32,149 nucleotides of DNA, taken from assembly GCA_021789555.1 (NCBI GenBank), contig JAJYJK010000014.1:1-32149 (forward strand), given 5' to 3'. A program made the translations under genes and the position numbers. Below, one piece after another: positions 8,484 to 31,246 of the stretch (its first letter is position 1; every line of letters begins with the position of its first letter). The notes under the pieces were generated by a model. The model was given only the letters and a program-made list of their open reading frames with translations, ran no database searches and had not been told where the DNA came from. This stretch comes from Nitrospirota bacterium. GTDB lineage: Bacteria > Nitrospirota > Thermodesulfovibrionia > Thermodesulfovibrionales > JdFR-88.

Positions 8484-8567
8484 GCCGTCATTCCCGCGAA
8501 GGCGGGAATCCGGAACTCTTGTTTTTTAAGACAATGGATTCCCGATTAATACCTTGGGAATGACGGC
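8484..8567. repeat. 84-bp MITE-like palindromic element, copy 1
   Basis: Bounded by perfect 12-bp terminal inverted repeats, GCCGTCATTCCC (8484-8495) and GGGAATGACGGC (8556-8567). Inside are two hairpins: ATTCCCGC/GCGGGAAT with a four-base loop, and ATTCCC/GGGAAT at the right end. A second copy lies at 15865-15953 with the same layout. The element is non-coding, sits between the glucan dikinase and the GH13 gene, and resembles the common CGTCATTCCCGCG repeats of other genomes. Confidence 0.85.
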
Positions 8568-8636
8568 AAGCAGCTTTTTTCAAAAAAATTTTATATAAGG
8601 AATTTCTGAAACACTACACTGGAAGGAGGGCAAAAA

Positions 8637-12427: not shown

Positions 12428-13552
12428 TTCGAGCTGCAAGACGTAACCTATCTCCACAAAAACGGCCATAAGGCCCTGGACGGGATTAATTTTTGCGTCG
12501 CCCGGGGCGAGGCCGTGAGCATACTGGGGGCAAACGGCTGCGGCAAGAGCACGCTGCTTTATATCATGCAGGGACTCCTGAAACCGGCCTCGGGCAGCCT
12601 CCGGGTGTTCTCCGAAGACGGCTTCACCGATGGCTGCCGAGCGCGGATAAGCCTGCTTTTTCAGAACTCCCAGGCCCAGCTCTTCTCCCTGAGCGTATGG
12701 GACGAGCTGATGTTCGGCCCCCTGCACCTCAGGGCAATGGAGCTGGAGGCCGCAAGACAAAGGGCGGGCGAGGTGATGGAACTGCTGGGCATAGAGCGCC
12801 TGAAAGACCGGTCCCCGTGGCAGCTAAGCGGGGGCGAAATGAAGAAGGTCGCCCTGGGCGCCTGCCTCAGCACAAACCCGGACGTCTTTCTGCTGGATGA
12901 GCCCACATCGGGGCTGGACCCCAGGAGCCAGGTGGAACTGGTGGAGCTTATAGCCGCGCTGAAAAAGGCCGGAAAGACCATAATCACCGCGACCCACGAC
13001 CTGCACATAATCGCCGATATCTCGGACAGGGCCATAATAATGGGGGAAACCCACAGGGTGCTTCTGGAGGGCGGCCCGCGGGAGCTTTTGAGGGAACACG
13101 ACCTCCTTTTAAACGCAAACCTCATCCACGAACACGTCCACGCCCACGACGGCTATGAGCACGAGCACACCCACTACGGCCCTCATGAACACCACGAGCA
13201 CGCGCACGGCCACGGCGGACATGAACATGAGGCCGGACATGACCATGAGGGCCACGGTGAAGAGCACGCCCATGAACACGCGCATGAGATCGGGGAAACC
13301 GGGACCGGGGAGGACAAGGTCCGTGAAGATGGACAAGATGCCCGATTGACCGAAGTCAAAGAAAAGCTGAAGATCCTGCTGCCCCACTGGGCCGAACACA
13401 ATATTGAGCACGCCCATACATATATGGAGTGGGCGCAAAAGGCCCAGTCGGCCGGGGCGGACGAGCTTGCCCTGACCCTGAGGGAAATCGCAAAGGAGGG
13501 CGAAAGGTTAAACGCCCTCTTTGACAGGGCGAAAAAGATGTTGCAGGAATGA
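12419..13552 (+). CDS. cbiO: CbiO ATPase of the ECF nickel/cobalt transporter with His-rich tail
   Basis: 377 residues, about 100 longer than ordinary CbiO. The ATPase core (about 1-230) shows Walker A GANGCGKST, Q-loop LLFQNSQAQLF, signature LSGGEMKKVALG, Walker B VFLLDEPTSGLD and the H-loop ATHD. Residues 237-289 contain 22 His among 53 residues mixed with Glu, Gly and Ala, a likely nickel-binding store. A charged linker leads to a final helical domain (about 310-375; LLPHWAEHNIEHAHTYMEWA) that I do not recognise with certainty. There is little ribosome-site signal; the start lies in the duplicated junction. Confidence 0.92.
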   Translation: MNVFELQDVTYLHKNGHKALDGINFCVARGEAVSILGANGCGKSTLLYIMQGLLKPASGSLRVFSEDGFTDGCRARISLLFQNSQAQLFSLSVWDELMFGPLHLRAMELEAARQRAGEVMELLGIERLKDRSPWQLSGGEMKKVALGACLSTNPDVFLLDEPTSGLDPRSQVELVELIAALKKAGKTIITATHDLHIIADISDRAIIMGETHRVLLEGGPRELLREHDLLLNANLIHEHVHAHDGYEHEHTHYGPHEHHEHAHGHGGHEHEAGHDHEGHGEEHAHEHAHEIGETGTGEDKVREDGQDARLTEVKEKLKILLPHWAEHNIEHAHTYMEWAQKAQSAGADELALTLREIAKEGERLNALFDRAKKMLQE

Positions 13553-13560
13553 GAATTTGA

Positions 13561-13585
13561 AAAAGGGCCGCCATCTGGCGGCCTT
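13561..13585. terminator. Bidirectional hairpin terminator between cbiO and gene A
   Basis: GGCCGCC (13566-13572), loop ATCT and GGCGGCC (13577-13583). On the minus strand the stem is followed by CTTTTTC, a good U-tract for gene A. On the plus strand it is followed by TTCTATAT. The hairpin lies between the convergent stops at 13552 and 13610. Confidence 0.8.
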
Positions 13586-13609
13586 CTATATCCGGTTTTT
13601 ACCTAAACC

Positions 13610-14476
13610 CTAATAGCCCGGCACGGAGACGTTCACGTTGGCCACGCTGCCGCTGACGCTTATCGGGCAGTTCCAGTAGGCGGGATTGTAATTATCGATG
13701 AATGCGACCTGCACATTCACGGCTGTCGAACAGGTCGGGAAACCGCCGTTATAATTGAGATAATTGGCTGCGGTATAGGGGTACTGAGGATAGCCCCTGC
13801 ATGTGTCTCCGGGGCCGGGGCATGCATAGACGTAATAGGTCCCGGGGGTTTTGATCTTTATGGTATAGTTGCCGTTCGAGTCAGTGGGAGACAGGGCGGC
13901 ATATTTTACCGGACCGCAATCATTGGCTGCAGCGGTATTCTTGAATTCCCATTTGCATGGCGCTATTGTGGCCTTCACGAACCAGCCCGCCAGGGCTTTG
14001 CCCGAAGCGCCCTTCACCGCTCCTGAAATCGTGACCGGCTGGCCGAATATGGATGCGTAAAGAGTGCCCATATTAATGACGGAACCGGTGGTGATCGTTA
14101 CGGTGGAACCGACGGAATACCACGTATAATCCCCGCCTCGGGGCGGGCCGTACGCCTGCGCCTGGGTGGGGGTGGCCGAAAGCGGCGCCCTCCGCATGAT
14201 CATCATTCGATAAGTCCCCTCCGGGACGCTTACGGAAATGTTGCCGTTCGCATCGGAGGGCCCCAGGACGTACTGCGCGTTCCTGAAATACTCCTGCATT
14301 ATCGGGGTCCCTTGCGGATATGCGTGAAGATATACGTAGGCCCCCGAAAGCGGCTGGCTGACCCCGCTTCCGTTATAAACAAAAGTCGCGGCAAGCGTGC
14401 CGTCCGCCTCGGCAATACCGGCAAAAAGCGCCGCCCAAAGTGCTAAGACTGAAAGAATTACAAGCCATTTTTTCAT
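13610..14476 (-). CDS. Exported two-module beta-sandwich protein, type 1 (gene A)
   Basis: 288 residues. A signal peptide ends near residue 24 (MKKWLVILSVLALW...AEA). Module 1 (about 25-150) has the pattern LSGAYVYL ... DANGNISVSVPEGTY ... YGPPRGGDYTWYS. Module 2 (about 150-230) starts VTISGAVKGASGKALAGWFVKA and has DSNGNYTIKIKTPGTYYVYA. These are the strand patterns of carboxypeptidase-regulatory/Cna-B-like domains, which usually serve as extracellular structural or adhesive modules. No enzyme motif, heme CxxCH or sorting signal is seen. It is second in the B-A pair. GGAGGG precedes the ATG. Confidence 0.78.
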   Translation of the reverse strand: MKKWLVILSVLALWAALFAGIAEADGTLAATFVYNGSGVSQPLSGAYVYLHAYPQGTPIMQEYFRNAQYVLGPSDANGNISVSVPEGTYRMMIMRRAPLSATPTQAQAYGPPRGGDYTWYSVGSTVTITTGSVINMGTLYASIFGQPVTISGAVKGASGKALAGWFVKATIAPCKWEFKNTAAANDCGPVKYAALSPTDSNGNYTIKIKTPGTYYVYACPGPGDTCRGYPQYPYTAANYLNYNGGFPTCSTAVNVQVAFIDNYNPAYWNCPISVSGSVANVNVSVPGY

Positions 14477-14570
14477 GGCGTTATCTGCCCTCCTTTAAGG
14501 CATTGGTCTGTAACATCTCACCTGCCGTCTTTCCTGCGCGGCCTCCGGTGACTTTCACTTGTCACCTGCT

Positions 14571-15394
14571 CTAATAACCGGGGACAACGACGTTCACCCC
14601 GGTTGCCCCCGCGGAAGCAACGCTTGTCGGGCAGTTGTAATAGAAATAGCTGCCGCAGGCCTCGCACCCAACGGCCGTGGCGCATGTGGGATAGCCGCCC
14701 GGATAGCCGGCGTTTGCGAAATTCAGGGCCGGGCTTGCGTAGACGTAATAGGTCCCCGCGTCTTTGATCGTGATGGTATAGTTGCCGTTGGCGTCGGTGA
14801 AGGCCGGGTATTTCGCCGCTCCGCACTCGTTGAAGGAATGGGCGTAGCTCCAGTTGCCCGATTCGCAGGGCACGGTCGCGGCCTTTACCGCCCATCCGGC
14901 CAGGACCTTGCCGGAGGCCCCCTTCACCGTCCCGGTAATCGTGACCGGCCGCCCGTATATGTCGGCATTCACCGCGCCCAGGCTGACTGCGCCGCTGGCG
15001 GGGACACTCACGGTTCCGGTCGAATGCCAGATATAATCCCCGGTATATGGGGGACCAAGCAGCCCGTAATTGCCGCTGCAATAAGTGTATGGGCATGCGG
15101 TGGCCCTCTTTATGACCCTGACATAATAGACACCCGCCGCCACGCTTACCGAAATATTCCCGCTTGCGTCGGAAGGCCCGTAAATGCAGGCAGACGGGTC
15201 GTTGGACTGGCAAGACACGCTCTGATAGTATTCTGCCGGGTGGGCTGGGCGGTGTTTTGCAGATATATGTAAGCCCCCTGAAGCGGCTGGCCGTTATAAA
15301 GGACTGTCGCCGTAAGCGTGCCCGCTATTGCCGTCCCGGCAAAAAGCGCCGCCGCAAGCGACATCAAGGCAAATGCGACAATAGTTTTCCTCAC
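14571..15394 (-). pseudogene. Exported beta-sandwich protein, type 2 (gene B), frameshifted
   Basis: Reads as a signal-peptide protein from the GTG at 15394 (MRKTIVAFALMSLAAALFAG) to about residue 54. The frame is then lost near 15233: the sequence needs one added base (CAG-GAA-TAC) to continue EYYQSVSCQSNDPSACIYGPSDASG. With that base the product is 274 residues, parallel to genes D, G and I. The downstream part keeps YGPP-type and GDYIW motifs, CESGNWSYAHSFNECG, and CATAVGCEACGSYFYYNCP. AGGGAGGTGATC before the GTG matches the 16S 3' end over ten contiguous bases (GGAGGTGATC). A one-base assembly error is as likely as true decay. Confidence 0.75.
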
Positions 15395-15490
15395 TTGATC
15401 ACCTCCCTTCGCTGATTTACGTAAACCCTCGCCTCTATTTGAACCATTATCCCTTGTTATTTGTCCCGCTACAGACGGGTGCGCATGCCC

Positions 15491-15550
15491 CTAGCAGGGG
15501 TGCACGCAAACGGAGCCGATCACGCGAGGCCTTACATATCTCTTCTTCAT
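15491..15550 (-). CDS. CVHPC short peptide, copy B (19 aa)
   Basis: Unannotated small ORF: MKKRYVRPRVIGSVCVHPC then TAG. GGAGGAGGG lies nine bases before the ATG. It starts about 54 nt downstream of the predicted sigma-54 transcript start and ends 96 nt before gene B. It is one of five copies in the window whose codons differ mostly synonymously (CCT here, CCG or CCC elsewhere; CAC against CAT), which argues for selection on the peptide. It has no signal peptide of normal length. The RYxRPRVxG segment resembles the YxxP leader element of some modified peptides, and two cysteines sit in CVHPC at the extreme C-terminus. Function unknown. Confidence 0.75.
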   Translation of the reverse strand: MKKRYVRPRVIGSVCVHPC

Positions 15551-15614
15551 CTGTTCCCTCCTCCTTTCAGGATTGTGGGAATGAATCTTCCCCCTTTTCC
15601 ATGCAACTTCGAGA

Positions 15615-15630
15615 AGCAATTTTTATTCCA
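15615..15630 (-). promoter_or_regulatory. Sigma-54 type promoter of peptide B / genes B-A
   Basis: Minus strand TGGAATAAAAATTGCT: GG and GC are separated by ten bases, exactly the -24/-12 spacing of sigma-54 promoters (consensus TGGCACGNNNNTTGCW). Transcript start would be near 15604. Shared with 18334-18349, 19641-19656 and 26834-26849. Confidence 0.72.
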
Positions 15631-15735
15631 GTACCCGATAAACGCCATATAGAATAATCAAACCAAACGTTGAATTTCAACTTTTTTTAAGTAGTTAGCC
15701 CCTCTTTTTAAATTTGGAAATTACAGGTTGCAATA

Positions 15736-15750
15736 TGCGAAATAACGCTG
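15736..15750 (-). promoter_or_regulatory. Conserved upstream element (candidate activator site), unit B
   Basis: Plus-strand TGCGAAATAACGCTG, lying 106 bp upstream of the sigma-54 -24 element, the normal place for an NtrC-family activator site. It matches 18468-18482 (one difference) and 19772-19786 (three differences). The AT-rich stretch between it and the promoter is also shared with unit D (AATTTCAACTTTTTTT). Confidence 0.6.
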
Positions 15751-15864
15751 GCGGGATTATGAACAAGAGGGATATAACGCAGGCAGGCGACGAATGAACC
15801 ACCCGAGTAAGAAGGGCGCGTCACAGGCATTATTAATAGTCTCAAAATAGTCTGAACATTCTTT

Positions 15865-15953
15865 GCCGTCATTCCCGCGTGTCTTTAGCGGGAATCCAGG
15901 ATAAAGGGCAATCTTAAAATGGATGCCCGATTAAGGTCCTCGGGCATGACGAA
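15865..15953. repeat. MITE-like palindromic element, copy 2
   Basis: Same element as 8484-8567: GCCGTCATTCCC at the left, and CGGGCATGAC (15941-15950) at the right. The left hairpin ATTCCCGC/GCGGGAAT is kept with a nine-base loop. In the right hairpin ATTCCC/GGGAAT has become ATGCCC/GGGCAT, a paired change on both arms. It lies in the 460-bp gap between gene C and promoter B. The rest of that gap (15651-15860) holds only the AT-rich leader and the upstream element. Confidence 0.8.
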
Positions 15954-16002
15954 CAAAGGAAGAAACCGGTAAATACTATTATGAGACAGTTAATGGGAAC
16001 CG

Positions 16003-16030
16003 GAGAGGGCCGCCAAACGGCGGCCCTCTC
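16003..16030 (-). terminator. Strong hairpin after gene C
   Basis: GAGAGGGCCGCC (16003-16014), loop AAAC and GGCGGCCCTCTC (16019-16030): a perfect 12-bp stem located 62 nt beyond the gene C stop. No U-tract follows on the minus strand, so it may act as an mRNA-stabilising or Rho-assisted end rather than a classical intrinsic terminator. Confidence 0.65.
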
Positions 16031-16092
16031 ATCGTTGCGCACTGACAAAAAACTTCCCAAAAGAGGTTTGCAGTCCGCTTGCTGCCAAATCC

Positions 16093-16959
16093 CTAAAAAT
16101 TGCCGCTTATGTTGACCCCCGTCAGGCTCTGCCCGCTGCCGACGGTTATGGCGGAGATAGCCCCGCCCGAACCGGTGCCAAATCCGCCCGCGTTGCTGCA
16201 CCCCCCCCCCCCCACCGCCTGCCAGCACAAGCCATAGCAGATGCCGGGAGTCGAGCATGCATAGATGTAATAGGTCCCCGGGTTTTTGAGCTTTATGGTG
16301 TAGTTTCCGTTTGCATCGGTGAGGTTCTGCGCCGGATATTTTGTCCCGCAGTTGGCAGTTGGCCCATTAGGCCTTTCACACACCCCAGAAGCCTGAATAG
16401 AGTGGCAGTAGTTGTAATATAATTCCTGACAGATCTGCGTGGTAGCCTTTACGAACGCCCCAGGCACGGGTGTTGAGCCGTCAGATTTGAAGACCCTTCC
16501 CGAGACCGTGATAGGCTCGCCGAAGAGCGTGGCGTAGACCGTGCCCAGGTTGATTACGGAGCCGGTGGTGACGGTTATCGTGGGGGCCACCGGGGCGCCG
16601 TAATTCCAGGTATAGTCCCCGATGTTGGGCCGGCCGTATGTCTGGGCCTGGGTCGGGGTGCTTGTAAGCGGAGCCCTGCGTGTGAAACGCACGTAATATT
16701 TGCCTTCAGGGACGCTGGCCGAGATGTTCCCGTTTGCATCGGTGGGCCCCAGTATCAACAGGGGACTTGAAAAATACTTTTCTTTCGGGTTTATCTTTGT
16801 GCCGCTCTGCAGATAGACATAGGCGTGGTCGAGCGGCTGGTTCACCCCGCTTCCGTTATAGAGAAACGTCGCCGTGAGCGTGCCGTTCGCCATCGCCACT
16901 CCGGCGGAAAGCATTACCGCGAACATTGATATGATAAAAACAGCAGGCCATCTTTTCAT
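16093..16959 (-). CDS. Exported two-module beta-sandwich protein, type 1 (gene C), with poly-G tract
   Basis: 288 residues from the ATG at 16959. The upstream in-frame ATGs give no signal peptide, whereas this start gives MKRWPAVFIISMFAVMLSAG...AMA with GGAGGG upstream. Module 1 (about 25-150) has LDHAYVYLQSG, DANGNISASVPEGKYYVRF and YGRPNIGDYTWNY. Module 2 has ITVSGRVFKSDG and DANGNYTIKLKNPGTYYIYA. About nine Cys lie in the second half. A run of 13 G's encodes GGGG near residue 252. A slip would replace the last ~35 residues by an unrelated tail ending near 15914. Second gene of the D-C pair. Confidence 0.77.
   Translation of the reverse strand: MKRWPAVFIISMFAVMLSAGVAMANGTLTATFLYNGSGVNQPLDHAYVYLQSGTKINPKEKYFSSPLLILGPTDANGNISASVPEGKYYVRFTRRAPLTSTPTQAQTYGRPNIGDYTWNYGAPVAPTITVTTGSVINLGTVYATLFGEPITVSGRVFKSDGSTPVPGAFVKATTQICQELYYNYCHSIQASGVCERPNGPTANCGTKYPAQNLTDANGNYTIKLKNPGTYYIYACSTPGICYGLCWQAVGGGGCSNAGGFGTGSGGAISAITVGSGQSLTGVNISGNF
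16201..16213. repeat. Homopolymer tract (C13 / G13) inside gene C
   Basis: Thirteen consecutive C on the plus strand, G on the coding strand, in codons GTG-GGG-GGG-GGG-GGG-TGC. It is the only homopolymer this long in the window and keeps the frame open at its present length. Tracts of this length are classical slipped-strand (phase-variable) sites and are also error-prone in sequencing. Confidence 0.9.
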
Positions 16960-17126
16960 GGCATCACCCACCCTCCTTTTCATGGTGATGTTTATACGCC
17001 TTTCGGCAGCGCGGCGACAGGCAGGCGACAAAACCTTTTTCACCCCTTTCTGCCGCCTGACCCGCCACCTGCCGCTCATCACAAATCCGGGGCTAGGCAA
17101 GCCCCGCCCTTACAATTCCCTCTGCG

Positions 17127-17189
17127 CTAGCAGGGGTGCACGCAGACTGAGCCCACTATGCGCGGCCTTGCATACCTCATCTTCTTCAT
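17127..17189 (-). CDS. CVHPC short peptide, copy C (20 aa)
   Basis: MKKMRYARPRIVGSVCVHPC then TAG. GGAGGG lies eight bases before the ATG. It sits inside the D-C unit, beginning 60 nt after the gene D stop and ending 167 nt before gene C. There is no promoter of its own, so it should be co-transcribed with D. Codons differ from copy B at R (AGG/AGA), P (CCG/CCT) and V positions without changing the motif. The region between it and gene C holds the GC-rich inverted repeat GGGGC...GCCCC near 17091-17106. Confidence 0.75.
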   Translation of the reverse strand: MKKMRYARPRIVGSVCVHPC

Positions 17190-17249
17190 ATCAAACCCTC
17201 CTTCCTCTTCTGGAATTCCAAATCCGCGACTTCTCTCTCTGTTTAAGGC

Positions 17250-18038
17250 CTAATAACCGGGGACAACGACGTTCACACCGGTTACCCCCGTGGAAGCGAC
17301 GTTAGTCGGGCAGTTGTAATAGAAATAGCTGCCGCAGGCCTCGCAGCCGACGGCCGTGGCGCATGTGGGATAGCCGCCCGGATAATTGGTGTTCGCAAAA
17401 TTCAGGCTGGGGCTCGCGTAGACGTAATAGGTCCCCGTGTTCATCAGCGTGATGCTATAGTTGCCGTTGGCGTCCGTGACGGCCGGATGTTTACCGGTCC
17501 CGCACTCATTGAAGGAATGGGCGTAGCTCCAGTTGCCCGATTCGCAGGGCACAGTCGCGGCCTTTACGGCCCATCCGGCCAGGACCTTGCCGGAGGCGCC
17601 TTTCACTGTCCCGGAGATCGTAATGTTTTCGTATGCGGTGGCGCTCACCGTGCCGAGTGCGACCGTGCCATTGTCAGCGACGGTGACCGTCGGAGGATTT
17701 GCCGCGTAGATCCAGATGTAATCCCCGGGATAGGGCGGCCCCAGATACGAAACCCCTGAACCCGTCCTCTTTGTGATACGCACATAATAGGCGCCAGCGG
17801 GCACGCTTGCCGAGATGATTCCGCTCGCATTGGAAGGCCCCAGGATATAGGACGCGTTGTGATAGTACAACTCCCTGGGGGAGAGCTGGGAGCCGCTCTG
17901 CAGATACATATAGGCCCCTGAAACAGGCTGCCCACTATAAAGGACTGTCGCCGTGATCGTGCCGTTTGCCTCGGCCGCCACAGCCGAAAGAACTACCGTG
18001 AACATCAAGACTACAAAAAATGCCAGCCGTTTCTTCAT
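17250..18038 (-). CDS. Exported two-module beta-sandwich protein, type 2 (gene D)
   Basis: 262 residues from the ATG at 18038, chosen because it opens a clean signal peptide (MKKRLAFFVVLMFTVVLSAVA) behind GGGAGGG. Module 1: GQPVSGAYMYLQSGSQLSPRE, SASVPAGAYYVRITKR, LGPPYPGDYIWIY. Module 2: ITISGTVKGASGKVLAGWAVKA, then the type 2 signatures CESGNWSYAHSFNECG, DANGNYSITLMNTGTYYVYA and CATAVGCEACGSYFYYNCP, ending VNVVVPGY. The five or six conserved Cys suggest disulfides outside the cytoplasm. It is close to gene B along its whole second module. Confidence 0.8.
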   Translation of the reverse strand: MKKRLAFFVVLMFTVVLSAVAAEANGTITATVLYSGQPVSGAYMYLQSGSQLSPRELYYHNASYILGPSNASGIISASVPAGAYYVRITKRTGSGVSYLGPPYPGDYIWIYAANPPTVTVADNGTVALGTVSATAYENITISGTVKGASGKVLAGWAVKAATVPCESGNWSYAHSFNECGTGKHPAVTDANGNYSITLMNTGTYYVYASPSLNFANTNYPGGYPTCATAVGCEACGSYFYYNCPTNVASTGVTGVNVVVPGY

Positions 18039-18197
18039 GGCATCATCTACCCTCCCGTCAGGCGATTTCATCGCCGTTTACCCCGTCTTTTTCCGTTTCT
18101 GCCTGCCACCAGCTGCTTGTCTCACATACGGGCGGAGCTACTTGTCAGCAGCCTTCCCCCTTGCCTTGCACATTCCAGCCAGTCTCCAGTTTCCGGG

Positions 18198-18260
18198 CTA
18201 GCAGGGGTGCACGCAAACGGAACCGATCACCCGGGGCCTCGCGTATCTTGCTTTTTTCAT
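18198..18260 (-). CDS. CVHPC short peptide, copy D (20 aa)
   Basis: MKKARYARPRVIGSVCVHPC then TAG, with GGAGG 8-12 bases before the ATG. It begins about 63 nt after the predicted sigma-54 transcript start and ends 159 nt before gene D. It uses CCC, CGG and TAC where other copies use CCG, CGC and TAT, so the protein sequence is better kept than the DNA. It is the first ORF of the transcript. Confidence 0.76.
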   Translation of the reverse strand: MKKARYARPRVIGSVCVHPC

Positions 18261-18333
18261 CTGTCTGTCCTCCTTTCAAGATCGGGAAAATTTATCTTCC
18301 CCTTTTTTTGCCTTCCTTCCACAACCGTATAAA

Positions 18334-18349
18334 AGCAATTTCCATTCCA
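18334..18349 (-). promoter_or_regulatory. Sigma-54 type promoter of peptide D / genes D-C
   Basis: Minus strand TGGAATGGAAATTGCT, with GG and GC ten bases apart, including the TTGCT -12 box. Predicted transcript start near 18323. It is nearly identical to the site at 26834-26849 (CGGAATGGAAATTGCG). Confidence 0.75.
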
Positions 18350-18467
18350 GATATAGGAAAAACCCCAAGTAGTATATTCAACCTTTCATTTAATTTCAAC
18401 TTTTTTTCAAGCAGTTATCGCACTATTTAAAATTGAAATTTTAGAAACCTTTATATTGAGATTTAGG

Positions 18468-18482
18468 TGCGAAATGACGCTG
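18468..18482 (-). promoter_or_regulatory. Conserved upstream element (candidate activator site), unit D
   Basis: Plus-strand TGCGAAATGACGCTG, 119 bp upstream of the -24 element. It shares 14 of 15 bases with the unit B element. GGTGCGAAATGACGC contains a small GCG/CGC inverted pair. Confidence 0.6.
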
Positions 18483-18519
18483 CCGGGTTGTGATATGAGT
18501 GTGATTTAACACAAAAAAA

Positions 18520-18563
18520 CCCCTCTTTAAAACAGGCGCAGCAACCGCGGGCTCCTGCGCCTG
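18520..18563 (-). terminator. Intrinsic terminator after gene E
   Basis: On the minus strand CAGGCGCAG, a 13-base loop and CTGCGCCTG (18563-18533) is followed by TTTTAAAGAGGGGTTTTTTT. It separates the E transcript from unit D. The 195 bases between it and the gene E stop (18564-18758) hold a small CTATATG/CATATAG inverted repeat (18674-18689) and nothing I can assign. Confidence 0.75.
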
Positions 18564-18758
18564 CCTGGGAAAATGGCAGTCTATCTAAAATATGCGTGGG
18601 GGCTGCATTGCCATGATTACAGCTCTCTAATTCGCCGGAGGGTCCTCCCAATCGTGCGGCTTTAATCCCTTCACTATATGCACATATAGCGCATTTGTGC
18701 CGGCCTGTGCCCGCCTGAGAATCGGGGAGATTTTCGATTGCATCACTTGGGGCGGTAT

Positions 18759-19432
18759 TTAGGTTCCGGCATATCCCGCGAATTTCTCGCCGTAAAACTC
18801 GATACCCGAGACAAAAAGCTGCGGTTTTGTGCCGATAATCATTAAATCGGGCCCGCATTTGATGTTAGTCGTCTCCCGGTCGAACCGGCAGGGCCCGCCG
18901 TCGGTCGTTGCCCGAACCTCCATGTTCCGGATTGTCGGGTTTTGGATGTTTTTTATGGCTCTTTGTAGAGCCCCCTGAGCCAAGGAAACAAAATCATCAT
19001 ATCCCATACCCCTGACATCGATGTGGCCGCTCCTATCCTTCCGGACACTGCCCCGGATGCTGTCGAGGTCCTCGGTAAGATAAAGATAAGCTTGGCCGAT
19101 TATGGCACCATAGTTGGCAAGGCAGTCCCGATATTTCCGGACCGCCCCCTCATCCGCCAGGCCCACCGGATAAAAATCCCAGACGCACGGCTCCTCAAAA
19201 CCGCAATACCAGTTATAAGACCACTGGGTAACGTGCCGCCCGGATCGAATTTTTCGATGCGGGCGTTGCCTGTATCGGAGACGTAAATGTTGCCGGATGA
19301 GTCCACCGCCACGCTATTTGGATGATTCAATCCGCCCCATGAAAGACTATACGAATAGACCGCCTCCGCCGCCCCAGCGGAAAACACGGCGCCAAACATC
19401 AAGACAGAGATTGCCAAAAGCCACTTTTTCAT
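18759..19432 (-). pseudogene. Exported NHL-repeat-like protein (gene E), frameshifted
   Basis: Starts at ATG 19432 with a signal peptide (MKKWLLAISVLMFGAVFSAG) behind GGAGGGG. One NHL beta-propeller-type repeat follows (NHPNSVAVDSSGNIYVSD and ARIEKFDPGGT). The frame breaks near 19229-19232. With one added base it continues TQWSYNWYCGFEEPC and runs on to a stop at 18759, giving 224 residues. The second half (IGQAYLYLTEDLDSIRG ... MIIGTKPQLFVSG) matches no family I recognise. WSYNWYC...C faintly recalls the NWSYAHSFNEC motif of the type 2 proteins. The peptide, promoter and upstream element before it are intact, so the frameshift may be recent or an assembly error. Confidence 0.65.
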
Positions 19433-19528
19433 GGCACCATTTCCCCTCCTTTGGTGCCAGCCCCCCTTTGCCTGCCTGCGAAGCAAATACGGGCGGGGCA
19501 AGCCCCCGCCCCTACAATTGTGCGCTTG

Positions 19529-19591
19529 CTAGCAGGGATGCACGCACACAAAACCGACTACGCGCGGCCTTACATATCTTGTTTTTCTCAT
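19529..19591 (-). CDS. CVHPC short peptide, copy E (20 aa)
   Basis: MRKTRYVRPRVVGFVCVHPC then TAG, with GGAGGGG ten bases before the ATG. It starts about 39 nt after the predicted transcript start and ends 96 nt before gene E, the same spacing as peptide B to gene B. It is the most divergent intact copy at both DNA and protein level (K2R, S to F), yet RY-RPRVVG and CVHPC are unchanged. Here the downstream gene is not a paired beta-sandwich protein, so the peptide is not tied to one protein family. Confidence 0.75.
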   Translation of the reverse strand: MRKTRYVRPRVVGFVCVHPC

Positions 19592-19640
19592 CTGCCTGCC
19601 CCTCCTTTCGACCTTGATGATGAATTCCCCAACTTTGGCT

Positions 19641-19656
19641 AGCAAATTATATTCCT
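19641..19656 (-). promoter_or_regulatory. Sigma-54 type promoter of peptide E / gene E
   Basis: Minus strand AGGAATATAATTTGCT: GG and GC at the exact ten-base distance, with a TTTGCT -12 box. Transcript start near 19630. Confidence 0.65.
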
Positions 19657-19771
19657 GAGATGGAAAAACTCCAGATAGCCGACAAATGCCGCCGATTTGG
19701 ATTCTAATCTCAAAGAGTTAGATTCTTTTTTAAATTTAACAATTTTAAAATTTTAATATTCGAGGTTGCTG

Positions 19772-19786
19772 TGTGAAATGACCCTG
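19772..19786 (-). promoter_or_regulatory. Conserved upstream element (candidate activator site), unit E
   Basis: Plus-strand TGTGAAATGACCCTG, 116 bp upstream of the -24 element, differing from the unit D element at two positions. The remaining gap to the yedE-like stop (19787-19992) contains GC-rich inverted repeats but no ORF or RNA I can name. Confidence 0.55.
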
Positions 19787-19992
19787 TGAAAGCGCGATAT
19801 ACCGCCAGCGGCGAATTCAAAAATAAAAAATGCTCTTGCGCATGCAAAAAGGGCCCCCAACCCGGTGAGGCATTTCAAACCAAGAGAGAGAGGGGAGAGT
19901 CCGTCAAGACAGCCAGAAAGACGGCGGCCCGGCAACCACCCGGGGGCAACGCCTTAAGCAGCCTTTACCCAGAGGTTTTCAGTCCGGGGGCG

Positions 19993-21141
19993 CTAATCGA
20001 GTCCCGCCTGATACTCGGGCGCGATGCCCATGCCCCTTTGCCTGTATGCCACGCCGACGGAAAGAAAGAATATGAGCCCCACTATTATTGCGACCTTTCC
20101 GCCAAACGGCGTGCCGTCGGGCGTGCCGGCGATGCCCCAGTTGTTCACGAGCGCGCCCCCCACAATCATGCCCAGCACGGCCGCGCCGGCATCCGTGTCC
20201 CCCTGGCCGGAGAGGATAAGCTGCCTTAAGGGGCAGCCGCGGATGAGGACGGAGCCGAACCCCACGATGACCATCCCCATCGCGTTCCAGAAGTAATCCT
20301 CGTTCGAGCTTGGCTGCCCGTGGATGCCCGGGTGAAATTGCCCGGTGAGCAGATTGGCAATGAAGGCGGAGATTATAAAGGCCCCTATGGCCAGCAAGAG
20401 CCCCGTCGATTTGGGGCATCCCTTTACCTCTTTGGGGCCCCACAAAAATAGGCGCGAAAACCCGCCCGTTATGCAAAAACCGGTCTTCTGGGCGAGCCCC
20501 CCGATTGCAAGCCCGGCGACCAGGGACATCCATATGGGGGCATGCAGGGCCGCCGACCCCTTGACGCTGCCGCTTATAAACGGCGCGCCGAAAAGGACGA
20601 GCAGCAGCAGGGCAAGCATCGAGCCCGGCACCAAAAGCCCGTTGGCCGAAGGCATCGCAACCGGCTGGCCGAGCCTGAAGCCGCCTTCGAGGAATTTCAG
20701 GCCCAGCCAGACGCCGGCCATTATCCCCGCCACCCCCGCCAGGGCCGTAAAATCCCCCGCGGACAGCTTGATGAGCATCTTGACCGGGCACCCGATGAAG
20801 ACCGCGCAGCCTATGATGAGGAATATCCCCGTAAAGAATTTCAAAAGCGGGGAACTCCCCCCGGTCGCCCTAAACCCCCCGCTCCTTACCGCGCCGAAGA
20901 AGGAGCCCAGGACCAGGCCGATTATCTCCGGCCTTGCATACTGCATCCTGAAATTCTCATGGAGCCGCAGCGCGCCGGCTATGTTTTCAAGGAAGCAGGA
21001 TATGCAGATGCCCGTATTTGGAGGATTGCCGAAGTATGACAAAATCGGCGCGGCGACCCCGAGCGAGACACCCGCCAATATGAAGAGCCATCTGTCCTTC
21101 CGGTTGAGTTTGAAAAAATTATCCGCAGCGGGGTTACCCAC
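19993..21141 (-). CDS. YedE/YeeE-family membrane transporter (putative selenium/sulfur species)
   Basis: 382 residues, about ten membrane segments. Two homologous halves carry the family's conserved Cys motifs: IGCPVKMLIKLSAGDFTALAG in the first and IRGCPLRQLILSGQGDTDAG in the second, with a further TGFCITGG. Family members move thiosulfate or have been proposed to move selenium compounds. The start is GTG at 21141, overlapping the TPR gene by eight bases. It is the last gene of a seven-gene operon. No selD, tusA or rhodanese is seen nearby, so the substrate is open. Confidence 0.85.
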   Translation of the reverse strand: MGNPAADNFFKLNRKDRWLFILAGVSLGVAAPILSYFGNPPNTGICISCFLENIAGALRLHENFRMQYARPEIIGLVLGSFFGAVRSGGFRATGGSSPLLKFFTGIFLIIGCAVFIGCPVKMLIKLSAGDFTALAGVAGIMAGVWLGLKFLEGGFRLGQPVAMPSANGLLVPGSMLALLLLVLFGAPFISGSVKGSAALHAPIWMSLVAGLAIGGLAQKTGFCITGGFSRLFLWGPKEVKGCPKSTGLLLAIGAFIISAFIANLLTGQFHPGIHGQPSSNEDYFWNAMGMVIVGFGSVLIRGCPLRQLILSGQGDTDAGAAVLGMIVGGALVNNWGIAGTPDGTPFGGKVAIIVGLIFFLSVGVAYRQRGMGIAPEYQAGLD

Positions 21142-27096: not shown

Positions 27097-27972
27097 TTAA
27101 TAAGTGGGGGTGTAATTGATATTCACGCCGGTCAGCTGCCCGCCGCTGCCAACGGACACCGGGCAGTAAGGGTAACATGCAATGGCCCAACTCCCCGTAG
27201 TAATGCATTGGCTGCAACTGGACCAGTAGGTCCCATACATATCCATGCAGGACGAGCAGGTGGCGGCCGGGAATGCCTGCCATGCGTTATAGCCATAGGC
27301 GGGGCTCGGCATGGCATATAGATAGTAGGTGCCCGGACTGCTGAGCTTTATCGTATAGTTGCCGTTTTGGCCGGTCAGTTGCGGGGCCGGATGTTTTATG
27401 CCGCACTGGGTTGCCACACCCCAATAATAATATCCCGCTATGCAGGGTGACTCCGCGGCAATCACAAACCATCCCGCCCGGGGAGTCCCCGAGGCATCCG
27501 TGACTTGTCCGGTGATCGAAACCGGGGGGGCGGAAGGGGCCCCGAATATAGTGGCATATATGGCGCCCAGGTTACTGACGGAACCGTTGGAGACGGTTAT
27601 GGTGGACCCGGGGGAATACCAGGTGTAATCGCCCGGGTTTGGCGGGCCGTATACAACTGTGGGCGTCGAGCCGAGCGGCGCGCGGCGGACAAGGCGGACG
27701 CGATAAATGCCATTGGGGACGCTGGCCGAAATGCTGCCGTTGGCGCCGGTCGGGCCGAAGACGTACTGCGCATTCCTGAAATATTTTTGCATGATCGGGG
27801 CCCCGAGCGGCGGGTACGCATGGAGATAGACATAGGCGCCTGAAAGCGGCTGGCCGACCCCGCTCCCGTTATACATGAAGGTCGCGGTGAGCGTGCCGTT
27901 TGCCTCGGCCATCCCGGCAAAAAGCACGGCAGCCAGCATCAAACCGATAAACACAGGAAGCCGTTTTTTCAT
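27097..27972 (-). CDS. Exported two-module beta-sandwich protein, type 1 (gene F)
   Basis: 291 residues from the ATG at 27972. Signal peptide MKKRLPVFIGLMLAAVLFAG is the same, residue for residue, as in gene H. Module 1: LSGAYVYLHAYPPLGAP, FRNAQYVFGPTGANGSISASV, YGPPNPGDYTWYS. Module 2: VSITGQVTDASGTPRAGWFVIAA and NGNYTIKLSSPGTYYLYA, then a Cys-rich end (CSSCMDMYGTYWSSCSQC and ACYPYCPVSVG). None of the Cys pairs is CxxCH. Second gene of the G-F pair, 46 nt after G. Confidence 0.8.
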   Translation of the reverse strand: MKKRLPVFIGLMLAAVLFAGMAEANGTLTATFMYNGSGVGQPLSGAYVYLHAYPPLGAPIMQKYFRNAQYVFGPTGANGSISASVPNGIYRVRLVRRAPLGSTPTVVYGPPNPGDYTWYSPGSTITVSNGSVSNLGAIYATIFGAPSAPPVSITGQVTDASGTPRAGWFVIAAESPCIAGYYYWGVATQCGIKHPAPQLTGQNGNYTIKLSSPGTYYLYAMPSPAYGYNAWQAFPAATCSSCMDMYGTYWSSCSQCITTGSWAIACYPYCPVSVGSGGQLTGVNINYTPTY

Positions 27973-28018
27973 GGCGTCAATTGACCCCCTTGAAGAGATT
28001 ATCATTCCGTTATTCACC

Positions 28019-28849
28019 CTAATATCCTGGGACGACGATATTCTCTCCGGTCACGGCCCCGGTGACGTTTACAGGGCAGTTGTAATAGAAATAGCCGCCG
28101 CAGGCCTCGCACCCGGCACCCGCCTGGCATGTGGGGTAGCCGCCCGGATAGTTGGGATTCCCAAAGTTCAGTTTCGGGCTTGCATAGACGTAATAGTTCC
28201 CGGTGTTATAGACGGTGATGGTATAGTTGCCGCTGGAGTCGGTGAAGGCCGCGATTTTCGATTGCCCGCACTCGTTGAAGGAATGGGCATAGGCCCAGTT
28301 GCCGGATTCGCAGGGCACGTTCGCCGCCTTTACGGCCCATCCGGCCAAAAGCCTGCCCGAAGCGCCTCTGACCGTCCCCGATATAGTCATGGGCTGGCTG
28401 GACTGGACCCCGTATATCGTGGTATTCACCGTGCCCAGGTTGACCGCTCCATTGGTGGTGATAGTTATAGTGCCGGGATAGAACCAGGTGTAATCCCCGG
28501 GATACGGGGGGCCAATGGCGGCAAGATCGTGTGATACGGGAGATAAATACCCGGACGGGTTCGGCGTGAAATTCGCCCTCTTTATTATTCGGACGTAATA
28601 GGCGCCTTCGGGCACGCTTGCCGAAATGTTCCCGCTCGAATCTGAAGGCCCAAGCAGATAAGCCGCGCTCTGATAGTATTGCTCCCTGGGGGAGAGCCGG
28701 GAGCCGCTTTGCAGATACGCGTAGGCATTTTGAAGCGGCTGGCCGCTATAAAAGACGGTAGCCGTGAGCGTGCCGTTTGCCATTGCCATGCCGGCGGGAA
28801 AGACCGCCAACGACGCGAAGATAAAAAAAACAGTCAGCCACTTTTTCAT
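28019..28849 (-). CDS. Exported two-module beta-sandwich protein, type 2 (gene G)
   Basis: 276 residues, signal peptide MKKWLTVFFIFASLAVFPAG. Module 1: GQPLQNAYAYLQSGSRLSPRE, YYQSAAYLLGPSDSSGNISAS, IGPPYPGDYTWFY, with a local insertion (NPSGYLSPVSHDLAA) absent from D and I. Module 2: MTISGTVRGASGRLLAGWAVKA, CESGNWAYAHSFNECG, CQAGAGCEACGGYFYYNCP, ending ENIVVPGY. GGGAGG precedes the ATG. The leader upstream contains a decayed peptide gene and promoter, so expression may now depend on read-through from H. Confidence 0.82.
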   Translation of the reverse strand: MKKWLTVFFIFASLAVFPAGMAMANGTLTATVFYSGQPLQNAYAYLQSGSRLSPREQYYQSAAYLLGPSDSSGNISASVPEGAYYVRIIKRANFTPNPSGYLSPVSHDLAAIGPPYPGDYTWFYPGTITITTNGAVNLGTVNTTIYGVQSSQPMTISGTVRGASGRLLAGWAVKAANVPCESGNWAYAHSFNECGQSKIAAFTDSSGNYTITVYNTGNYYVYASPKLNFGNPNYPGGYPTCQAGAGCEACGGYFYYNCPVNVTGAVTGENIVVPGY

Positions 28850-28935
28850 GGCGCTACCTCCCTCCTCTCAGGTGACTTCGACCTTTAACCTGCCCCCTAT
28901 CGCTTCCCTCCCAAATAACTTGCTGCCGGCCACCT

Positions 28936-28990
28936 GCACCGGCAGGGATGCGCGCACCAGGCATCCGATGACGCGAGACCCCATTTCATG
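28936..28990 (-). pseudogene. Decayed CVHPC peptide gene upstream of gene G
   Basis: Minus-strand CGCGTCATCGGA and TGCGCGCATCCCTGC align with the RVIG and CVHPC codons of the intact copies. One extra base between them shifts the frame, and the stop codon has become CGG. From the ATG at 28989 the reading is MKWGLASSDAWCAHPCR, which keeps CxHPC only. No good ribosome site remains. The gap 28850-29369 holds this relic, the decayed promoter and upstream element, and nothing else I can assign. Confidence 0.6.
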
Positions 28991-29110
28991 ACTGAGGTAA
29001 TGAGCTTCCCACGTTTCCGTCACAACCCTGGATAGCAAGTAAGTAGCAATTATCACGCCAGCGTTGGAGGCGCCGGACAGGGCAATTGACAGCCGGTTGG
29101 ATTTCATCCA

Positions 29111-29126
29111 TTTTATTTCTATTCCA
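29111..29126 (-). promoter_or_regulatory. Decayed sigma-54 promoter, unit G
   Basis: Minus strand TGGAATAGAAATAAAA keeps the -24 TGGAAT of the other units, but the -12 TTGC has become AAAA. A sequence resembling the upstream element (TGTGATATGGCGCAT on the plus strand, 29205-29219) lies only 79 bp away, so spacing has also changed. Confidence 0.5.
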
Positions 29127-29369
29127 ATAAGTTAGGAGCGCTCTCTTTTTTAAAAGTAAAAATTTATAAAATTAGAATGGCTTGCGGGGGATAGCGCATG
29201 GTGGTGTGATATGGCGCATTTTGCACGCGATATTCTGTTAAAACCTGCTGCGGGGTCTCCCCGGTTTTCCGCCCCATTAAAGTGGCGAGATGACGAGTCG
29301 GGCGTTGCTGGCTGGCTTTTTTTGCGCCTGACCGGTCACCCGCCACTTTTCCAAATGCGGTCGTCAGAA

Positions 29370-29432
29370 TCAGCAGGGATGCACGCATGCAAAACCGACC
29401 ACGCGCGGCCTTGCATATCTCATCTTCTTCAT
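29370..29432 (-). CDS. CVHPC short peptide, copy H (20 aa)
   Basis: MKKMRYARPRVVGFACVHPC then TGA (other copies end in TAG). GGAGGAGGG precedes the ATG by nine bases. It starts 34 nt after the gene H stop and is probably co-transcribed with I-H. The next intact gene (G) is 520 nt away, so here the peptide does not act as an immediate leader of a coding gene. That makes an independent function of the peptide more likely. Confidence 0.74.
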   Translation of the reverse strand: MKKMRYARPRVVGFACVHPC

Positions 29433-29466
29433 ATAAAGCCCTCCTCCCCTCCGGTATTATCAGATA

Positions 29467-30282
29467 CTATTGGGCAATGATATTCAACCCGGTCAGATAG
29501 CTCCCCGCGCCAACCGTCACCGGACAGACCGGGACTTGACCGCTATTATACACGCCGCCCGTGTACGGCGGGCATGTGGTATAGGGCACCTCGTCCTGGA
29601 ACGCCTGAAAATAAGCCGCATAGGGCTGGGCATAGACATAGTAGGTGCCGGGATTGCCCAGATTTATAGTATAGTTGCCGTTCGAGTCGGTCAGCTCCCG
29701 CGCCGGATATTTCATGCCGGGACAGCCTCCGACCTGTCCTCCCGCCCCGACCTGGCAGGGCGCCGTCGTCGCCATTACAAACCATCCCGTCTGGGGAGTC
29801 CCCGACGAATTCGTGACTTTCCCGGAGATGGAAATCGAGGCCGTCTGCGGGGCGAATACCGTGGCGTACACGGCGCCCAGGCCGATGAGGGAACCGGCGG
29901 TGACGTTTATGGTGGAGCCGGCGGAATACCAGATCAAATCCCCCCGGCTTGGCGGTCCGTATTCATTTGTGGAAGTCGCGGCAAGCGGCGACCTGCGAAT
30001 GAAGACGCGATAAACGCCGTTTGGGACGCTCACCGAAAAATTACCGTTTGCATCGGACGGCCCAAGGACGTACTGCGCGTTCCTGAAATATTTTTCCATG
30101 ATCGGCGAGCCGCTGGGCGGATAGACATGGAGGTAGACATAGGCGTTGTCAAGCGGATGGATGGCCCCGCCTGGGTCCTTATACAGGAATGTGGCCGTGA
30201 GCGTGCCGTCCGCCATTGCCGACCCGGCAAAAAGCACGGCAGCCAGCATCAAACCGATAAACACGGGGAGCCGTTTTTTCAT
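29467..30282 (-). CDS. Exported two-module beta-sandwich protein, type 1 (gene H)
   Basis: 271 residues from the ATG at 30282. Signal peptide MKKRLPVFIGLMLAAVLFAG. Module 1: LDNAYVYLHVYPPSGSP, FRNAQYVLGPSDANGNFSVSV, YGPPSRGDLIWYS. Module 2: ISISGKVTNSSGTPQTGWFVMA and DSNGNYTINLGNPGTYYVYA, then a shorter C-terminus with few Cys, ending LTGLNIIAQ. It is closest to gene F and lies the same 46 nt after its type 2 partner (I). Confidence 0.8.
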   Translation of the reverse strand: MKKRLPVFIGLMLAAVLFAGSAMADGTLTATFLYKDPGGAIHPLDNAYVYLHVYPPSGSPIMEKYFRNAQYVLGPSDANGNFSVSVPNGVYRVFIRRSPLAATSTNEYGPPSRGDLIWYSAGSTINVTAGSLIGLGAVYATVFAPQTASISISGKVTNSSGTPQTGWFVMATTAPCQVGAGGQVGGCPGMKYPARELTDSNGNYTINLGNPGTYYVYAQPYAAYFQAFQDEVPYTTCPPYTGGVYNSGQVPVCPVTVGAGSYLTGLNIIAQ

Positions 30283-30328
30283 GGCGTCATCTGACCTCCT
30301 TAAAGAGATTATCATTCCGTTATTCGCC

Positions 30329-31117
30329 CTAATATCCCGGGACGACGATATTCTCTCCGGTCATGGCCCCGGTGACGTTTATCGGGCAGTTGTAGTAGAA
30401 ATAGCCGCCGCAGGCCTCGCACCCGACACCCGTGGCGCATGTGGGATAGCCGCCCGGATAGCTGGTGTTTGCAAAATTCAAGTCCGGGCTGGCGTAGACG
30501 TAATAGGTCCCCGTGTCTTTGATCGTGATGGTATAGTTGCCGTTAGAGTCGGTGAGGGCCGGATATTTCGCTGCTCCGCACTCGTTGAAGGAATGGGGAT
30601 AGGCCCAGTCGCCCGATTCGCAGGGCGCGGTCGTCGCCTTTACGGCCCATCCGGCCAGCGGATTGCCCGAAGAGCCTTTCACCGTACCGGATATCGTGAT
30701 CGACTGACCGCCGTATATTTCGGTATTTACCGCACCCAGGGCGACTACGCCATTGGTGGTGACGGTTATGGTGGCGGGGCTGCCGGTGTAGAACCAGGTA
30801 TAATCCCCCGTGTACGGGGGGCCAAGACGCGACGAGCTATTCGCCCTCTTCGTTATCCGGACGTAATAGGCGCCTTCGGGCACGCTTGCCCGGATGTTGC
30901 CGTTTGCATCTGAAGGCCCAAGGATATCAGCCGCCTGCATATAATACATTTCCCTGGGCGGCAACTGGGAGGCTCTTTGCAGATATATGTAGGCATTTTG
31001 AAGCGGTTGGCCGTTATAAAGGACCGTCGCGGTGATCGTGCCGTTTGCCATTGCCATCCCGGCGGAAAAAAATGCGGAAATCGTAAAGACGATAAAGAAA
31101 GCAAGCCATTTTTTCAT
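30329..31117 (-). CDS. Exported two-module beta-sandwich protein, type 2 (gene I)
   Basis: 262 residues from the ATG at 31117, behind GGAGGG. Signal peptide MKKWLAFFIVFTISAFFSAG. Module 1: GQPLQNAYIYLQRASQLPPRE, DANGNIRASVPEGAYYVRI, LGPPYTGDYTWFY. Module 2: ITISGTVKGSSGNPLAGWAVKA, CESGDWAYPHSFNECG, DSNGNYTITIKDTGTYYVYA, CATGVGCEACGGYFYYNCP, ending ENIVVPGY. No sigma-54 site with correct spacing is seen in the 130-bp leader, so it may be read from the gene at 31247 or from further right. Confidence 0.82.
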   Translation of the reverse strand: MKKWLAFFIVFTISAFFSAGMAMANGTITATVLYNGQPLQNAYIYLQRASQLPPREMYYMQAADILGPSDANGNIRASVPEGAYYVRITKRANSSSRLGPPYTGDYTWFYTGSPATITVTTNGVVALGAVNTEIYGGQSITISGTVKGSSGNPLAGWAVKATTAPCESGDWAYPHSFNECGAAKYPALTDSNGNYTITIKDTGTYYVYASPDLNFANTSYPGGYPTCATGVGCEACGGYFYYNCPINVTGAMTGENIVVPGY

Positions 31118-31246
31118 GGCATCCACCCTCCTTGTAAGGTGACTTGGAGGCTCTGACCTGTCGCCTGCCGCTTGTCATTTACAACCCGCGCCTGTGGGGA
31201 CCAGTCCCTTTGACGCAGGGAAGAGCAATTATGCGGAAAGCAATAA

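Follow-up and report, generated by a model that had tools for sequence, protein, structure and literature searches.

A run of 13 G's near the end of a gene for an exported protein, here called gene C, probably expanded recently and specifically in this lineage, within a tolerant glycine loop close to the C-terminus. The run lies in a stretch of 32,149 nucleotides from an uncultured Nitrospirota bacterium, to which we refer as the window. An earlier note on this DNA had proposed gene C as a candidate phase-variable exported protein. The indirect tests mostly argue against its being maintained as a switch.

Gene C and the frame effect of its G tract

Gene C occupies positions 16093–16959 on the minus strand (stop codon 16093–16095) and encodes an exported protein with two prealbumin/CarboxypepD-like beta-sandwich modules. 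The likely start is the ATG at 16959, supported by the preceding AAGGAGG and by the MKKW/MKRW beginning typical of the family; the longest ATG-started frame begins at 16983 (16096–16983, 296 aa). From 16959 the N-terminus reads MKRWPAVF...AMA/NG, where we recognize a signal peptide by eye, followed by the two modules that are seen in the AlphaFold model and in the Foldseek matches. The model (mean pLDDT 78) consists of a helix at residues 12–27 and then two beta modules, and Foldseek relates it to Gram-positive pilin and adhesin beta-sandwich proteins with E ~1e-7 at a whole-chain TM-score of only ~0.25; the shaft pilin SpaA and Bacteroides adhesins are among its closest known counterparts. 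Weak Pfam matches of the gene C family point to CarboxypepD_reg (PF13620) and to SpaA/CNA_B-type prealbumin-like modules, but gene C itself scores only 27.2 bits against CarboxypepD_reg, below the cut-off of 32.3, whereas its paralog D scores 34.6 bits and exceeds it. A sequence profile search of solved structures with gene C gave no significant match.

The tract is found at 16201–16213, where the plus strand has 13 C's with an A on either flank and the minus strand accordingly has G13 within gene C. It is read in frame as GTG GGG GGG GGG GGG, encoding V-GGGG, and corresponds to nucleotides 771–783 of the 888-nt frame 16096–16983, or residues 257–261 counted from the 16983 start. With 13 bases inside a coding sequence, it exceeds the ~8 from which homopolymers in genes or promoters are long enough to slip. 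The structure model places the residues encoded by G13 in a low-confidence loop (256–267, with pLDDT below 50 at residues 256–260 and 263–267) ahead of the module 2 strands 269–271 and 278–281. The tract is located 87% along gene C, and because of this late position it is unlike a classical early on/off switch.

We computed the products expected for different tract lengths n, counting from the 16983 start. The present length yields 296 aa, and the gene C frame is also kept with n = 10 or n = 16. The products are 356 aa for n = 14 and 355 aa for n = 11, both ending at ~15914, and 278 aa for n = 12 and 279 aa for n = 15. The earlier note had described G13 as in frame, had stated that a one-base change would swap the last ~35 residues, and had noted one alternative frame open to 15914; the sequence and the computed frames agree with it on all three points.

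The tail that follows the tract (16096–16200, minus strand) reads CSNAGGFGTG...VNISGNF, comprises the last beta strands, and is conserved. Over 33 codons it differs from its counterpart in the best ortholog (described below) by 7 synonymous and 5 non-synonymous changes (dN 0.10, dS 0.46, dN/dS ~0.22), and third codon positions hold 10 of the 16 base differences. The tail is thus under purifying selection in the frame set by n = 13, which makes this the ancestral, selected frame.

One extra G or two fewer would instead lead into a 95-codon tail (15914–16200, minus strand), which crosses a hairpin. Its codon-position bias is weaker than that of the real tail, its counterpart in the ortholog ends elsewhere (70 versus 96 positions including the stop), and the two resemble each other only where they overlap the real coding region. 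We consequently rejected the possibility of a conserved alternative tail; neither codon bias, nor the hairpin, nor the ortholog comparison gave any sign of coding function. The hairpin itself is a 12-bp GC stem-loop at 16003–16030 on the minus strand (fold z -3.9), ~60 nt past the gene C stop, and is likely the end of the gene C transcript; it is missing from a consensus terminator scan because no T run follows it. Beyond gene C, the window contains at 15850–15950 an intergenic inverted-repeat element (CCCGCGTGTCTTTAGCGGG ... GATGCCCGATTAAGGTCCTCGGGCAT), relatives of which are found at window positions 8535–8569 and, in another genome of the genus (G001), next to another run of ten G's.

The tract in relatives and the gene C family

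The best ortholog of gene C (G002:C29:99396-100160) comes from a metagenome-assembled genome (MAG) of the same genus and is 76% identical over the second module. At the tract the ortholog has CAG GGG GCG TGC AAT, and gene C has CAG GCG GTG GGG GGG GGG GGG TGC AGC AAC; the respective protein segments are CWQGACNAGG and CWQAVGGGGCSNAGG. A G5 in the ortholog thus faces the G13, and gene C is 15 nt longer in total with the frame kept. A second close homolog in the same MAG lacks the tract segment altogether. The comparison of tract length with relatives that the earlier note had suggested therefore yields, from one ortholog in one MAG, a much shorter run and not a conserved tract of varying length. 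A scan of named genomes for a second strain found only the sister species. We also surveyed run lengths in 47 ORF matches of the family, gene C included, from both genomes and two others, and none of the remaining 46 has a run longer than 8.

The family is large: this genome has 21 matches and G002 has 27, a number of which are fragments of a single gene. It was not detected in G001, the other same-genus relative (82% complete). Viral contigs contain no relative. Within the window it forms two clusters, genes A–D at 13610–18071 and four genes at 27097–31126. Genes A (13610–14476) and D (17250–18071, upstream of gene C) are paralogs on the minus strand without a long tract. Gene B (14571–15409, minus strand) is a paralog whose reading is split across two frames; compared with its G002 ortholog it differs by one base near 15170–15180, outside any homopolymer, and it represents either a pseudogene or an assembly error. 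An exported NHL-repeat frame at 18463–19501 (minus strand), which follows one of the micro-ORFs described next, stops near 19110 and is continued by an unrelated-looking frame, so that the gene may be damaged; G002 has NHL repeats in fusion with a gene C family module. No Rfam elements were found in window positions 13000–20000.

Many genes of the family are preceded by a micro-ORF of 19–20 codons that ends in RPRVVGSVCVHPC and a stop codon. It reads MKK-x-RYARPRVVGSVCVHPC-stop and has AAGGAGG as a strong ribosome-binding site; its C-x-H-P-C codons lie on the minus strand of the window at ~15497–15517, 17133–17153, 18204–18224, 19532–19549 and 29373–29390. The two genomes contain ~26 copies (27 DNA pieces were collected, of which all but ~1 seem true). 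Variation is higher at third codon positions than at the first two, which are almost invariant; the final Cys, His, Pro and Cys, however, were specified in the search pattern and are hence fixed by construction. Conservation of the peptide despite changes at wobble positions points to a translated product, which may possibly be a modified-peptide precursor or a leader peptide. With a strict DNA pattern, the micro-ORF is detected nine times in this genome, each time at a gene C family locus, and is absent from a sample of 197 other genomes of the phylum (G002, which has copies, was outside this sample). Neither Pfam nor NCBIfam contains a match to the C-x-H-P-C peptide, and a literature search for it returned no hit. 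In a separate observation on G002, its contig C15 (L058:6957-12328) and the 5372-b contig C156 of G008, a MAG of a different genus, are 99.93% identical over the entire 5.4 kb of the latter; a recent transfer could account for this, although mis-binning of the contig is the simpler explanation.

Long G runs in the genome and in the order

The G13 is the only G/C run of at least 10 in the window. It contributes 4 overlapping G/C 10-mers, compared with a mean of 0.69 in shuffled sequences, and only 1 of 100 shuffles reached 4. A model of independent bases predicts 0.33 runs of at least 13 in 2.85 Mb at 57% GC. The same model over-predicts runs of at least 9 (51 expected versus 16 seen in the genome), and rescaling from the 16 observed runs lowers the expectation for at least 13 to 0.03–0.13. 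On either estimate the G13 is unusual, though not extreme, for one genome.

The other long runs in the genome comprise one G16, three G10 and eleven G9. The G16 (G000 contig C86:51771-51786), which is longer than the tract in gene C, seems intergenic and lies within an inverted repeat of high GC content (TGACCGGGG...CCCCGGTCA). With host frames judged by eye, runs of at least 9 G's occur mostly in housekeeping-looking genes (including lipoyl synthase, asparagine synthase and response regulator types) or between genes. Because the shorter runs are spread over genes of many kinds, surface genes do not stand out in this genome as preferred sites of G tracts. A mismatch-repair defect was considered as a cause of instability and rejected, since both MutS and MutL are encoded.

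Across the order, 29 runs of at least 12 G's are present in 21 of 121 genomes, several of them intergenic or at contig ends; runs of this length are thus known in the order without a phase-variation role. Runs similar in length to that of gene C are associated with chemoreceptor (MCP) genes of genus g14, of the same order (G16 in G118 and G15 in G077). The chemoreceptor genes in question are orthologs, 84% identical, and have the run immediately 5' of their conserved start; at the G118 locus an open frame also passes through the tract. The g14 run, unlike that of gene C, is kept in both species with differing lengths, which is the pattern expected of a maintained contingency tract. The g14 chemoreceptor runs are consequently better phase-variation candidates than gene C.

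Origin of the tract and its possible use

A young, mutable expansion is the most likely of the explanations considered. Under this explanation a short run resembling the G5 of the ortholog would have grown to G13 by replication slippage, and the site would be hypermutable now because runs this long slip often. In-frame steps (n = 10 or 16) would merely alter the number of glycines. All other steps would cost the protein its last 35 residues, and with them the final strands predicted for module 2; the unrelated tail gained instead, 18 or 95 residues long, would probably impair or unfold module 2.

Alternatively, gene C could be a true phase-variation (contingency) locus in which slipped-strand mispairing switches between full forms (n = 10, 13, 16) and C-terminally altered forms, producing surface heterogeneity. 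This is possible but rather unlikely. Much of what the earlier note relied on stands: the tract is real and in frame, as an ON state would require, the protein has a signal peptide and pilin/adhesin-like modules and belongs to a large family of exported paralogs, and slippage would change its C-terminus. The G13 is also within the length range of known contingency loci, and selection on length would be consistent with the finding that a 15-nt insertion has been kept in frame. As in the poly-G/C contingency loci of Campylobacter, Neisseria, Helicobacter and Bordetella, a long in-frame G run in a gene for an exported protein allows slippage to shift the frame. The tract of gene C differs from those loci in that it is 1) not conserved in the ortholog, 2) the only one in a large family and 3) late in the gene. 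The location of most of the genome's runs of at least 9 G's in housekeeping-looking genes or between genes, the presence of MutS and MutL, and an alternative tail that passes through a strong hairpin and is unconserved likewise argue against the proposal. A narrower version, in which gene C is a recently born phase-variable surface protein and its tract a contingency locus caught before spreading to other family members, is somewhat less probable still.

It is less likely that the length of 13 is a consensus or assembly error of the metagenome-assembled genome and that the true run differs. Homopolymer length calls are prone to error (PMC8808543), gene B in the same array is frame-broken, and the sister genome is a MAG. 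Against such an error, no break is seen in the window's large genes, and a length of 13 keeps the frame of the ortholog's tail, as random errors would do in one third of cases. Slippage of RNA polymerase or the ribosome on the G run could produce a fixed mix of tails from unchanged DNA, given that transcriptional slippage can arise at long homopolymers and that one alternative frame is long, but this is highly improbable given the strong hairpin within that tail, its weaker codon-position bias and its lack of conservation in the ortholog.

At present the G13 is best regarded as a mutable site of unproven biological use. A literature search found no dedicated report of slippage-driven surface variation for the phylum. 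If variation were demonstrated, it would extend this type of surface variation to an environmental phylum, and gene C would illustrate how a contingency tract can originate from a short G run.
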